Source of the DNA: Notolepis coatsorum
Lineage: Eukaryota > Chordata > Actinopteri > Aulopiformes > Paralepididae
Assembly: GCA_963971535.1 (NCBI GenBank)
Contig: OZ020594.1
Span: 117,773,127-117,837,126, forward strand
DNA length: 64,000 nt
Direction: 5' to 3'
Under the pieces are notes generated by a model. The model ran no database searches, was not told where the DNA came from, and saw only the letters and a program-made list of their open reading frames with translations. Positions 49,732 through 58,177 of this stretch are shown here, in pieces. The translations under genes were made by a program, and so were the position numbers. How positions within the stretch are numbered: position 1 is the stretch's first letter; each line of letters opens with the position of its first letter.

Positions 49732-50413
49732 CTAAAAGCTGCTGGATATTCTCACCAGAAAAAAAAGATTAGTGTCATCCGCAAATAAAATACATTTAAA
49801 TATATTGGATACTTTACATATCTCGTTAATGTACAAGATGAACAGTTTTGGACCCAACACTGACCCATGGGGGACACCACAAGCAATGTCCAAACATTCA
49901 GATTTATAATCTCTCATTGTCACAAATTGTTGTCTTTTATTTAGATAGCTTCTCACCCAGTCCAATACTACCCCCCTGATCCCATATCTTTCCAATTTCC
50001 TGATTAATATATCATGATTAATAGTATCAAATGCTTTTTTTTAGATCAATGAATACTCCAGCTACATGTTTTTTTTTATCTATGGAATTTGTGATTTTTT
50101 CAATGAGTTCTATTAATGCTAGTGATGTTGACCGGTGTGTTCTGAATCCATACTGGCTATCGGTGAGTAAATTATGTTTATCAATGAATTTATCTAATCT
50201 GTTGTTGAAGAGTTTTTCTAATATTTTTGAAAACTGAGGAAGTAGAGAAACAGGCCTATAATTTGTGAAGTGGTGTTTATCTCCAGTCTGGAACAGAGGT
50301 ATGACTTTTGCTATTTTCATTTTATTCGGAAATCGACCAGTTTTGAATGATAAATTGCAGATGTGCGTGAGTGGTTTTGAAATCCCACTAATGAAATTTT
50401 TTACTATTTTCAT
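49732..50413 (-). pseudogene. LINE-R reverse transcriptase core
   Basis: Two overlapping frames on - with LTHICNLSFKTGRFPNKMKI, NYRPVSLLPQFSKILEKL, QYGFRTHRSTSLALIELI, motif A region VAGVFIDLKK (frame break in a T-run near 50033-50041), YGIRGVVLDWVRSYL, CGVPHGSVLGPKLFILYIN and motif C FADDTNLFF. In the conserved PQG motif Q is replaced by H (GVPHGS). The family's upstream endonuclease is not in this window. Confidence 0.8.
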
Positions 50414-50580
50414 ATCTATTTCATTACTGTCTGTAGATGTCTTGTTTTTACATTTATTATAGTTGGGTCAAGAACCAACATTCTGTGACCATTCTCTGGC
50501 TAAGATGTTTTGATGATTGATTTAACTTCTATGGACCTTTTATAAAATATTTAGCCCCCGTGTCCCTCCGAAAAATCCTG

Positions 50581-52204
50581 GGCCCTCATTCATCAACGTG
50601 TGCGTAGAACATGTTCTATTTCCACACGTAAGCACAGAATTTAGAATGAGTGTACGCACAGGAAAGTCGGGATTCATCACACGTGCGTACGCAGGTTCTA
50701 CGCACACCTGTCATGATGAATATGACTTTGATCCTACGTTTGAGCTTGTGCACTGTTTTAAGTATTTGCATACCAGAAACGCCCCGATTAACCATATACG
50801 GTAATGGAATACACCCATGAAATGTGGAAAAATGGACTAAGCCGAGGGAAGCGTGTCATGAGACAGGCTGACAGACGTGTACACTTACGGTGATGTCGGA
50901 TATGATATCTATTAACCATTGCTGCCTGGGCAGCGCAAACACTAATAAATACCGTGCTGGAATATGACTGCCTTTTCCCGTGTTGTTTGATTAATACCCA
51001 GGGATTAAAGTTCTCCTCAATTTTATTCCAAATCGTGATGGATCTCCCGTCAATTTTCTACCTGCTGCATATGATTTCTAGAGGCATACTACAATCTATT
51101 TTGATGTCAGTATTGGGTAGCCTATATAAACAATAATACGAGAGCATATACAAGAACAATGAATCTCACTGCATGTATGATGTAGCCTGCCTTTCAATAC
51201 ATGAACTTGAATTCCATCATGTTTGTGTGCGGGACTCACAAGGCTGTTGTCACAATGGGTGGTACCGGTACAGTAATAATAACAGTCCACACAATATCAC
51301 GATCCATGCCATAGCCTATGTTCTATTAGGACATGATCTGTGACGACAAATGTTCTAGAATGTTTGATTAAGATATCATACTCTGACAGCATGCCTATGA
51401 TCAACAAAAACGCGAACTTGAATCCCATCATATACATAGTCTGTCCACTATCTGGTGTCATTGCAATGCGTTTTCTATTCTTTCTTATACAGTAAAAAGG
51501 GGGAAGAACACTATATTCATATGACTTGTATTCTGCTTACAGCTTCGAAATTCCACTTGTTTCGTTTAACGTAAAGCCTTTTAAATATAACCAAAACGTT
51601 CCCGTGATTCTGCGGTCTGTGCGCAAAATAATAACGAGTTGAGCTTTATGATTTATGATGAATTGAAAATGGGGGACCCTGATGTAAACAAGACGAAAGT
51701 CTTTCTCTGGTCTGCATCCCCTTAACAATTGTATGTACTGAGCTGTACTGTACTGTACCCATTCTGCAATCTGTTAATAAACTTTTCAATCAATCAATCA
51801 ATCAAGCTACGCGGAGCGCAGTCAGTCAGTAGCCTACACCCCGTATATTCCGATAACGCTATATAAACCATGCTGCATTCATTCTGAGAGAAAGATCTAT
51901 TATTCCAAATGCTATTTATAGGGTTTTGACCATAATTACACTACTGTTGCTATTTTACAATGAACTATAATGAACTACGGTTCACGGAACATGCCAGTGT
52001 TATTATGCACAGCAGCTCATTTCCTTGTTGTAATAATATATTCTACCACTGGGCGTCAGCTAAGTGTGCTCTGACCTGTGCGTAGACGTAAGCACGGAGT
52101 CAAGTTCAAGTTGAAATTGATGAATCCCACTCTTTGCTTAGAAATGATCGTACGCACAGGGTAAGCACAAATCTGTGCGTAGAACACGTTGATGAATGAG
52201 GGCC
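50581..52204. mobile_element. PIF/Harbinger MITE, copy B (CTG duplication)
   Basis: Ends GGCCCTCATTCATCAACGTG and inverse, flanked by CTG at 50578-50580 and 52205-52207. It is inserted in the left TIR of the XPG-type element. Reverse-oriented homologue of copy A, including the internal LINE-A fragment. Confidence 0.88.
51652..51806 (+). mobile_element. LINE-A 3'-end fragment inside MITE copy B
   Basis: ATGATGAATTGAAAATGGGGG to (TCAA)n. Same position as in MITE copy A. Confidence 0.8.
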
Positions 52205-52568
52205 CTGGCATTTTTTGTCAGATGGCCAAATCGAAAATATCTGCTGACGCCATCTTGAAAAATTTACTTTTGATCCAGAGCACCTAGAATCATGTATGAA
52301 TACATTTTTTTGTGTAAGTCAACCATGACGATTCCAATTCTGACATTAGTTTGACTCTATGACATAAATTTAACACAGAAATCCAAGATGGCCACCATTC
52401 AGTAGAGCAAAAATGTAGATAGAGACAGCAGAGCGAAAATGTAACTTTTGAATGGGAAAGTAAGATTTGGTGTTTGGGCAGGGCTTCAGACTAACAACTT
52501 TCCCAATAGCTAGCTAGCTAGCAACAACAACTAGTTAGCTAATATAGTCATTGTAGCCCTGTACTGTA

Positions 52569-55298
52569 GGAGGGGGTACTGCACACCGCTGTAACTGGAT
52601 GTTTCTGCAACGTCTAGAATGTCATGTACAGGACTATGAGGCAAACATCCAGGTTGAGCATGCATGCATAAAAGATGCCAAGATTGTGTCGCAGGCACTG
52701 ACTGAGAAGGCGTCTGAGATGCAGGCAGTTATGCCGTATAGGACCATCAAGCTCGGTGAGCCTCCCATCCGCCCTAAGCCCACTATGTTCTCATTAAGTA
52801 CAGAGCCTCAGCGCAAGCGGAGTATTATTCATGCCCTTGCTCGTGCAGATACAAATGGTGATACAAAGTCCATCACAGGCAACCCCTACTCCAACATGGC
52901 CTGGGACATGTGGATCGAGTGTACAATGAACAAGGGCAGCAAAATGAAGTCTGGCTGGCTCTCCATCCTCCAGAATGAGAAGCAGCTGCTGGTGCACTCC
53001 AAAAATGTGAACAATTTGGCCAAGATCCGGGTGGCTCACAATGCCCTGGCCACACACAAAAAAGCCAAGAGGAAGCACATAGAATGTGGTCCGAAAAGGA
53101 TGAGAGAAGATGAGCAGCGCGTGCAGGACCTGGTCGCATGCATGCATGAGTTTGATTCCTTCCCATTTGATCCAGCCTCACCCACCCTCCGCATCCCTAC
53201 AGTCAGCCATGCCTGCCTCTGATGAACTCATCGCGGACTTCAACTCAGCCTATGCTGTGGGAGAGGAGAAGTTGACCAGCTTCTTGCAAGACCGAGTGTT
53301 CAGTAAGAAAACCTCCCTCCATGCACCTGTCCCTCTGAGCAAACGCTTGACATTTGCCAAGCAGCCCTGCATGGAGAAGCCCGGGGAGGAACTCAAAGCA
53401 AGAGCTGCTGAGATGGAGCAGAGTGCTCTCAAGGCAGTGATCGACCTGGTTGAGGTCAGTCAACTTGTGAATCTCTCCGAGTTGCTGGAACATCGTGTTG
53501 TCGAGGAATGTGTGGCCTTATTCAACTCCAATGGCACATATAGGAAGACACAGAAGAGCAAGCTCATTCAGAAGCTCTCTCTCCAATCTGTAGATCTGCA
53601 AGAACCCTACACCGCTCTTGTCGACATGGGCATGATCTGGAGGATGGCAACCCCATCAGCAGAAGATCGGCAGACACAAGATGGCACCCTATACAAGTGG
53701 TTGGACTATGTCCACAAAGTATCATCCATCATCCTTGCCCGCCATGGTGATGCTGACCGTATTTTCTGTGTAAATGACCCATACGACGATGATGAGCGAG
53801 ACCTGCGGGTACAAGGTAAGGTACATGTCCCCATCACCTACATGAAGCTGGGCGACCCCTTCCCCTCTGCCAGAGAGTTCAAAACACTGCTGTGTAGCGT
53901 CAGCAACAAGGAGCGGCTACAAAAAGTAATATGCAGCTATCTGACTGACCTTGTTGCACAGGGTGTAGATACAGAGATCGGCTACTCTGTTGGCTCCCAC
54001 TGCACCAACTTGTCAACCCAGCAACCAATGCAGAACTACAGCTTTGACCAGTCTGAGGCTGACACCATCCTCTTCTCTGCTTACACAGTTCTTTTTTTTT
54101 TGATCCACTTTTTCTCCCATTTTTCTATATTTTCTCCCATCCCAATTTCGTATCATCCAATTCAACCCTCCCCTTTCACGGACGCTGTTTCTTGCCTCCC
54201 ACAAGCCGGCTGCAATGTGGACTAAGTCATACATAGCACAAGTCCCCTCCGGTACTTGAGGTAACAGCAGTCGCATCTTTTCACCTGCGCAGCTCGATCT
54301 CTCAGTGGCGAGGAGTAACGCGTGGGAGGCTCACGCTGCCCCCGACACTTCCTGATTCTACTGCGCAGGCGCACCAACCGACCTGTAGGAGTCGCTGTCC
54401 ACAACGCCCGATCCCCACCCATCAGTTTCCCACCCCCTAATACGGCCAATGTGTATTAGTATGGACGACCAGCTAAACTGAAAGCAAATGTGGAGCGCTG
54501 GGCTCGAACTGACGAGCCCAGCGTCTCCAGCATTTCGTGGCGAGTGCCTTGCCCACTACGCCACGTAGCCGCCCTCTGCTTACAGTTCTACGTGAGTCAG
54601 GCTACAGTGGCCCTGTGGTCATTGATGCAGCCGACACCGATGCCTATGTCACGGCAGCGGTCATTTCTCAACAGCTGCCCGGTATGCTCTGCATCAAGAG
54701 AAAGCAGGACACGGTCTTCTGCCGTGGCCTGGTTACTGAGGAGATGGCAGATTGTATTGTGCAGCTACACTGCATTACAGGCTGTGATGCCAATTCAGGC
54801 TTCTATGGCAAGGGTAAGTCGTCGGTGTATGACAAGGTGGCAAAGAGCCCTATGGCACGACTGCTGCTCTCGCGGTGTGGAGATAGCCTTGACCTTGAGG
54901 AGGAGGTGCTAGAGGAGCTGTTTGAGTTCACACGACATGTTATTTATGGCGACAAGAAGAGTAGCACCATGGCTGAGGCCCGTGCCACAAAGTGGAAGAG
55001 AATGAAGAACAAATCATTCATCCATCTCCCTCCAGATGCAGATAGCCTACGTGCCAACTACTTGGCATATCTAGTGCGCTGGGAGCTGGTGGGTGGTCGC
55101 TGTCGCCCTGTCCGCCACACACGACCTGCTCTCCCAACACATCTACCTGCACCAGGGCCAGCTGAAGAAAGTGAGGAAGAGGAGAGTGAGGAGGATGATG
55201 ATGAGAAGGGAGATGATGATGTATGGAGGAGGAGGGGTGATTCATTGGAATCTGATGATTCAGAATCTAGTGAGGCAGAATGCTCTGATTCAGACTGA
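52569..55298 (+). pseudogene. XPG/PIN-like nuclease-type protein of the TIR element, broken
   Basis: Three frame segments: 52569-about 53195 (reads through VSQALTEKASEMQAVMPY), about 53195-54091, and 54590-55298. One frameshift lies near 53195-53205 and a SINE (54092-54573) splits the third part; the frame is otherwise open to a stop at 55296-55298, giving roughly 740 residues. The C-terminal third has QSEADTILFSAYTVL, VVIDAADTDAYVTAAV and LHCITGCDANSGFYGKGK: an acidic E-A-D, D-T-D and G-C-D series that fits a PIN/XPG (FEN-1-like) metal site. The tail is very acidic (EESEEEESEEDDDEKGDDD). There is no ATG before 52599 and the left TIR ends only ~110 bp upstream, so 5' exons are probably deleted. 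Confidence 0.75.
54092..54573 (-). mobile_element. tRNA-derived SINE inside the XPG-like gene
   Basis: On - it starts GGCGGCTACGTGGCGTAGTG with A box TGGCGTAGTGG (54553-54563) and B box GTTCGAGCCC (54500-54509), and ends in poly-A (poly-T on + at 54092-54101). Flanking duplications CTCTGCTTACACAGTTCT and CTCTGCTTACAGTTCT (54075-54092, 54574-54589) differ by one CA. Confidence 0.85.
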
Positions 55299-55328
55299 TC
55301 ATGACATGTTTAAAGTGGTTTCATTGTT

Positions 55329-55526
55329 GGGGCGCTCCAGTAGCACACCACATAGCGTGCTGAGTCGCGAAGCGGTCGTCCCGGGTTCGTTTCCCAGTCC
55401 CGGCGACCATTTGCTGCATGTCTTCCCTACCTCTCCTCCCGTTCTCCCTCTCTCCCTCTATCGGTCCTGCGTGGCCAGAAAAAGCTGAAAATGCTATAAA
55501 GTAAAAAATAAAAAAAATAAAAATAA
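55329..55526 (+). mobile_element. tRNA-derived SINE 3' of the XPG-like gene
   Basis: Starts GGGGCGCTCCAGTAGC, has a B-box-like GGGTTCGTTTCC (55383-55394) and an A-rich AATAAAAA tail. A perfect 17-bp duplication AAAGTGGTTTCATTGTT flanks it (55312-55328, 55527-55543). Confidence 0.88.
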
Positions 55527-56339
55527 AAAGTGGTTTCATTGTTAATCTGTTCAAGTTACAGCTATTTAAGAGTGTATTTTGAAGTATAATTAGTTATCTT
55601 ATCATACTGTACATTCATCAATTATTTTGCTGAGATCCTTATGAAGGTCGTTTGTTTAAAGTACAGCAGTACCATGGTAAAATTGGTTTTGACATTAAAA
55701 GTTACATTTTCGCTCTACTATATGGTGGCCATCTTGGATTTCTGGGTCAAATTGATGTCATAGAGTCAAACTGATGTCAGAATTGGAATCGTCATGGTTG
55801 ACTTACACAAAAAAGTGTATTCATACATGATTCTAGGTGCTCTGGATCAAAAGTTAATTTTTCAAGATGGCGTCAGCAGGTATTTTGGATTTGGCCATCT
55901 GACAAAAAATGCCGGGATTTTTCGGAGGGACACGGGGGCTAAATATTTTATAAAAGGTCCATAGAAGTCAAATCAATCATCAAAACATCTTAGCCAGAGA
56001 ATGGTCACAGAATGTTGGTTCTTGACCCAACTATTAGTAGTTTCTATAATTTCATTTTCATCTACCGCTTCCAGAAACATTGAACTAGGATTTCTTTCAA
56101 TATAATTGTCTTTATTAAATCTCATCTCATCTTTATAAAAACACAACATATACAGCAAATAATAAACTCTCCTTTATTCCCCCGCACATTATCATGGAAG
56201 GTACTCATATTTTCCACTGGTCACGGTATAGATCCAAACATAGAGCAGTCTATACAGCAAGTAGCAGATATATTCAGGATTAAGTAGAGTTGTTGTAGAA
56301 GGACGGTGTTACGGTTTCACCTCCACAACCCTCCATACC

Positions 56340-57116
56340 TGTCTCACCCCCCCCCCCCCCTTCACTTCAGCTCAAACCTCCATTCCTGTCTCACACACCC
56401 CCTTCACTTCAGCTCAAACCTCCATACCTGTCTCACACCCCCCCTTCACTTCAGCTCAAACCTCCATACCTGTCTCACCCCCCCCCCTTCACTTCAGCTC
56501 AAACCTCCATACCTGTCTCACACACCCCCTTCACTTCAGCTCAAACCTCCATTCCTGTCTCACACCCCCCTTCACTTCAGCTCAAACCTCCATTCCTGTC
56601 TCACACACCCCCTTCACTTCAGCTCAAACCTCCATTCCTGTCTCACACACCCCCTTCACTTCAGCTCAAACCTCCATTCCTGTCTCACACACCCCCTTCA
56701 CTTCAGCTCAAACCTCCATTCCTGTCTCACACACCCCCTTCACTTCAGCTCAAACCTCCATACCTGTCTCACACACTCCCTTCACTTCAGCTCAAACCTC
56801 CATTCCTGTCTCACACACACCCTTCACTTCAGCTCAAACCTCCATTTCTGTCTCACACACCCCCTTCACTTCAGCTCAAACCTCCATTCCTGTCTCACAC
56901 ACCCGCTTCACTTCAGCTCAAACCTCCATTCCTGTCTCACACACCCGCTTCACTTCAGCTCAAACCTCCATACCTGTCTCACACCCCCCCTTCACTTCAG
57001 CTCAAACCTCCATACCTGTCTCACACACCCTCTACACTTCAGCTCAAACCTCCATACCTGTCTCACACACTCCCTTCACTTCAGATCAAACCTCCATTCC
57101 TGTCTCACACACCCCC
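56340..57116. repeat. 42-bp minisatellite, about 19 units
   Basis: Unit is CTTCACTTCAGCTCAAACCTCC + ATTCCTGTCTCACACACCCC (42 bp, written as two parts). The length is a multiple of three, so one frame stays open (56306-57148) as a 14-residue repeat LHFSSNLHSCLTHP. The upstream 56166-56339 is unassigned. Confidence 0.92.

Positions 57117-58177
<1,061 letters not shown>

Follow-up and report, generated by a model that had tools for sequence, protein, structure and literature searches.

A Decayed Copy of a Probable AcademX-like DNA Transposon in the Genome of Notolepis coatsorum

Introduction

Among cut-and-paste DNA transposons, the AcademX lineage carries a nuclease of the XPG type, while the target duplication is TWA in PIF/Harbinger elements and TTAA in Kolobok elements. 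The Academ superfamily and its AcademX lineage were reportedly described by Kapitonov and Jurka in 2010 and by Kojima in 2020. The available text of one account, from 2023, gives AcademX a target-site duplication (TSD) of 3 or 4 bp together with an encoded nuclease, and AcademH a TSD of 9 or 10 bp, tied to an encoded helicase (PMC10045372). Academ is listed among the DDD/E superfamilies in the accessible portion of a second source (PMC9587614), and the excerpt at hand of a third reports it from zebrafish, medaka, and stickleback (PMC4746887). Our literature search found no paper naming Academ together with XPG.

Here, we analyze a transposon copy from Notolepis coatsorum that lies in a 64,000-nucleotide stretch of contig OZ020594.1 (hereafter, the window; positions count from its first letter), and we compare it with other copies and with diverged lineages of the same genome.

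Results

An Insertion within a LINE

The transposon copy occupies 50460..56033, within a host LINE whose RVT_1 reverse-transcriptase region lies on the downstream side of the insertion (49732..50456, minus strand) and whose frame upstream of the insertion spans 56037..56170 (minus strand). It is bordered on the left and on the right by the TTA duplication that had been predicted (50457..50459 and 56034..56036). Its terminal inverted repeats (TIRs), anticipated at about 336 bp, are indeed 331-336 bp long: the right one measures 331 bp (55703..56033, minus strand), and the left one is divided into an outer part of 122 bp (50460..50581, plus strand), which starts with TAGTTGGGTCAAGAACC and shows 98% complementarity to the right TIR, and an inner part of 214 bp (52204..52417, plus strand), which shows 94%. 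Overall, 318 of the 331 compared positions are identical between the left and right TIRs of the window copy, and a sub-terminal left region common to other copies follows at 52418..52562 (plus strand).

When the flanks are joined with a single TTA, a 189-aa LINE frame spans the junction and runs into the reverse transcriptase, which bears out the expectation that excision would restore the host frame. The joined empty site (185 bp) was also compared with LINE copies across the genome, where all 40 scored out of 599 candidates matched at 99%, over the full 185 bases in 38 cases and from base 3 in two; this constitutes strong evidence that the insertion is real. Beyond the element, the window holds a tandem array in which a 42-bp unit is repeated about 18 times (56356-57118), as well as an ORF that resembles, by eye, a histone H2A-type protein (57776-58177).

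A Gene in Fragments

The window copy has itself been invaded several times. A nested element of 1622 bp (50582..52203), absent from the original prediction, splits the left TIR; it has TIRs of its own (ends GCCCTCATTCATCAACGTG) and is flanked by the 5-bp duplication CCTGG. A SINE-like insert on the minus strand (54092..54573; duplications 54075-54091 and 54574-54588) splits the nuclease-like domain. Located 3' of the gene is a SINE (55329..55526, plus strand; duplications 55312-55328 and 55527-55543) that appears tRNA-like by eye and at which ARAGORN called no tRNA; the same SINE is present in copies L018, L021, and L042.

The gene had been placed at 54050-55298, yet coding remnants start farther upstream, near 52557. 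The first of the three remnants, all on the plus strand, derives from the N-terminal half of the gene (52568..52862), downstream of the candidate first Asp, and has a deletion junction on each side: it corresponds to positions 1577-1871 of the L042 element, and the following window block restarts at L042 position 2734. Of the piece surrounding the first Asp, 56% is retained, without the Asp itself. The second remnant (52867..54091) comprises the candidate last Glu (D-M-W-I-E, 52905-52919), a middle region, and the first nuclease-like half, with VDMG, VNDPY, and EADT (54055-54066); its reading frame breaks near 53220. The third (54574..55298) holds the second nuclease-like half, with DTD at about 54633-54641 and GCD at 54780-54788, followed by an acidic C-terminus. 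All three motifs of the original prediction, E-A-D, D-T-D, and G-C-D, were thus recovered, but not within one frame of 54050-55298, E-A-D belonging to ORF 53104-54225 and the other two to ORF 54513-55298, with the SINE-like insert in between. Because its reading frame is lost, along with two of the three residues proposed as catalytic, the window copy is not expected to make the enzyme.

Fuller Copies across the Genome

We searched the 3.42 Gb genome with the right TIR of the window. All 40 scored matches, among 629 candidates, lie at 99-100% identity, which points to a young family with many copies. Twenty stretches were retrieved by TIR, of which 17 served for the end analysis; L015, L016, and L022, being incomplete at one end in the retrieved stretch, were excluded when ends and domains were counted, the window copy was added for TSD counts (18 copies), and L042 and L043 were included later, being selected for an N-terminal match lying farther from the TIR. 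Since copies were chosen by likeness to the right TIR of the window, the counts given below should not be read as an unbiased survey of the genome.

Perfect 3-bp TSDs of varied sequence, including AAC, GGC, CTG, ACC, CAA, AGA, and TGG, flank 16 of the 18 copies, in agreement with the duplications of 3 or 4 bp described for AcademX, and a 4-bp TSD flanks none; the exceptions are L013, in which the last base is altered, and L024, in which the first bases are lost. Most copies (14/17) measure 4.26-4.35 kb and carry a stretch of about 1 kb that is absent from the window. More of the upstream part of the gene is retained in L009 (4794 bp), and more still in L042 and L043. The latter two show first a Cys-rich N-terminus, then a DUF6589-like core bearing candidate D-D-E residues, and finally the nuclease region. 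Over 522 bp, which exceeds the TIR length of 331-336 bp in other copies, the left end of L042 (L042:28-549) corresponds to the right end of L009, giving the impression that one end was duplicated onto the other, and the first frame of L043 starts likewise.

Nine protein pieces were surveyed in 20 copies, a piece being counted when at least 60% of it was matched. The N-terminus was found in two copies, the first Asp in three, the linker in four, D2/GxxH in 18, YGRW in 19, Glu in all 20, and the nuclease parts in 19, 20, and 20, so that most of the compared copies are themselves N-terminally shortened. Only the window copy is without both D2/GxxH and YGRW, which makes the missing core a deletion private to it among the 20. 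The reading of the element as encoding an XPG/PIN protein "rather than" a DDE transposase consequently reflects an artefact of the window copy: fuller copies possess the central domain at an upstream position, the order along the gene being the same. Among the copies whose frames were listed, none offers one clean full-length frame in the exact family. Estimates of dN/dS between close copies are too noisy to be informative, ranging from 0.16 to 1.12 in the middle region, from 0.14 to 2.7 in the core, and from 0.41 to 0.61 (one undefined) in the nuclease region, and some of the alignments contain frameshifts.

A Transposase-like Core Shared with Diverged Lineages

Diverged lineages of the same genome retain this arrangement of regions. 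In L038, a single 1518-aa frame holds a Cys-rich N-terminus, the core, the nuclease motifs, and a Cys-rich end, and in L039, L034, and L033, the core and the nuclease motifs occupy adjacent frames, the L033 frame ending near the last motif. The protein of the family is 22-24% identical to that of L038 over the aligned part. Several places hold members of the L038 lineage (L038:803-5359) that share this domain order and have long open frames, the longest reaching 1518 aa, which suggests recent activity.

In the core alignment, D-x3-E is invariant in six rows, and D-x-x-L/V-Y and G-x-x-H are found in all four lineages covering that part. From this alignment, D1 (IIDN), D2 (GDHPVY, VDEALY), and E (DxxxE) emerge as candidate residues of a D-D-E triad. 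The first-Asp site is D in L009, L033, and L038, and the L039 frame has no Asp there.

DUF6589 is a Pfam family without stated function, and our literature search found no paper naming it. Its matches to the core of the family, in L009 and L021, fall short of the cut-off (E 0.0015 and 0.0019); against a cut-off of 27 bits, those to the diverged cores stand above it in L033 (27.5) and L034 (28.5) and below it in L038 (23.2), and neither the core frame of L039 nor three scanned L042 frames gave a DUF6589 match. Similarity between the core and the DUF6589 protein L029 was not significant. L029 and L030, which have stronger DUF6589 matches (100.9 and 71.4 bits) and whose listed frames showed no nuclease motif, represent another lineage. 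A profile of the core compared with seven archaeal IS256 transposases gave no signal (score 15.1, probability 0.1%), and profile A1 had no match in the PDB. An RNase H fold is presumed for the core from the published statement, in the accessible portion of its source, that Academ encodes a DDD/E transposase (PMC9587614). Accordingly, the eventuality foreseen in the original prediction, namely that full-length relatives would carry a transposase upstream, was largely realized: the fuller copies do carry an upstream core, but its RNase H fold is presumptive.

A Probable XPG/FEN-type Nuclease Domain

The nuclease-like domain shows the acidic motif order of FEN1/XPG flap endonucleases (VIDG, FD, EEADT, DTD, TGCD..GKG), from which it differs by its very low similarity and by being joined to a transposon core protein. 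A six-row profile of it was compared with a profile of 17 archaeal FEN proteins, obtained from 22 examined loci of which 19 proteins were chosen by motif and 17 exceeded 300 aa. The comparison scored 31.6 (P 0.0019, hhalign probability 14%); none of 200 column shuffles did as well, the best reaching 24.8, and the reversed and core profiles gave 13.2 and 18.9, respectively. The significant local match is confined to TGCD..GKG, the last motif; a forced full-length alignment is collinear and brings all five acidic motifs into register, with low confidence there.

By comparison, scores of about 61 were obtained for known relatives, namely the 5' nuclease of E. coli PolA and a piece of XPG. Moreover, most of the signal comes from one row, L039 alone scoring 30.4 and the other five being weak (P 0.076 to 0.3), and the nuclease profile scores 18.7 against the E. 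coli PolA 5' nuclease, barely above the Klenow part (17.8). For these reasons, we grade the XPG/FEN-type nuclease domain as probable, not proven. For the FEN/XPG-type metal site of the original prediction, motif order and P value speak in favor, and the low hhalign probability, the dominance of a single row, and the lack of a signal against PolA speak against. Single-sequence structure models were uninformative (pLDDT 41 and 36).

Searches of Pfam and the PDB gave no nuclease match for the domain, and PDB sequence searches with the proteins of the element gave neither a nuclease nor a transposase match. No relative was found in viral or prokaryote contigs, the nuclease frame of L034 had no match among phage records, nor did the L021 protein among plasmid records, and NCBIfam, PHROGs, and PADLOC held nothing relevant for the element.

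Discussion

The element in the window is, in our assessment, likely to be a degenerate and non-autonomous member of an AcademX-like family of cut-and-paste DNA transposons that is young and present in many copies. The family fits AcademX, as published accounts describe it, in its TSDs, its domain order, and its probable nuclease; the two share 3-bp duplications without fixed target, TIRs, and the lack of a helicase match in the proteins scanned, and probably a nuclease domain as well, and the window copy differs in being internally deleted. AcademH, which belongs to the same superfamily in the available text of the published account (PMC10045372), is set apart by duplications of 9-10 bp and a helicase, against 3 bp in the family and no Pfam helicase in L009, L021, L038, or three scanned L042 frames, and membership in it was rejected on these two grounds. 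Kolobok is likewise ruled out by the varied 3-bp TSDs.

The original prediction had wavered between an Academ-like element and a new group. The former half stands, by virtue of the TSDs and of the probable XPG/FEN-like domain, while the case for a likely new group found no support. It is rather unlikely that the family represents a new superfamily related to Academ, phylogenetically distinct while having the core and the nuclease in common: its identity to L038, at just 22-24%, speaks for such a distinction, but the TSD length, the nuclease-like domain, and the lack of a helicase match in the proteins scanned fit AcademX as described.

We give very little credence to the notion of a transposon group moving by a PIN/XPG nuclease alone, without a DDE-type enzyme. 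In its favor, the window copy retains no more than the final portion of the core and the nuclease-like domain, and the RNase H fold of the core is presumptive, the IS256 comparison having given 15.1 and 0.1%; yet D2/GxxH is kept in 18 and YGRW in 19 of the 20 copies, and the core stands beside nuclease motifs in the diverged L033, L034, L038, and L039. Finally, a Harbinger-type element is scarcely conceivable, since the TTA of the window copy agrees with a TWA site, but the 3-bp duplications of other copies are unrelated to TTA and vary among the 16 perfect ones, so that the target is not fixed, and Pfam scans returned no Harbinger domain.

In this reading, the fuller copies encode a long multidomain protein made of a Cys-rich N-terminus, a probable DUF6589-like transposase core with candidate D-D-E residues, and a probable XPG/FEN-like PIN nuclease. 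The core would bind the TIRs and, acting as a transposase of the RNase H type, excise the element and transfer its strands with a 3-bp stagger, and the nuclease may help to process the ends or the non-transferred strand. Internal deletions have stripped the window copy of its N-terminus and of two residues of the candidate catalytic triad; it sits in a LINE with a 3-bp duplication and has in turn received a TIR element and a SINE-like insert. This copy may have been mobilized by an enzyme acting in trans, or before its decay, and the shortened copies may also have moved in trans.

A bolder scheme would make the XPG/FEN-like domain an essential second catalytic subunit, which cuts the strand spared by the RNase H core and sets the 3-bp stagger. 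The 4.3-kb subfamily, in which the N-terminus and the first Asp are lost and the second Asp, the Glu, and the nuclease are kept, might then have spread by way of a trans-assisting, nuclease-bearing protein. TnsA, which works with TnsB, provides an analogy for a nuclease paired with an RNase H core; we nonetheless deem this scheme improbable.

From the perspective of transposon biology, the comparison removes a false lead, the absent transposase region being a deletion in the window copy and not a feature of the element. What takes its place is a large, recently amplified family that joins a nuclease-like domain to a probable transposase core, and this family, together with the diverged long-frame lineages of the same genome, provides useful material for investigating the role of the nuclease in Academ transposition.
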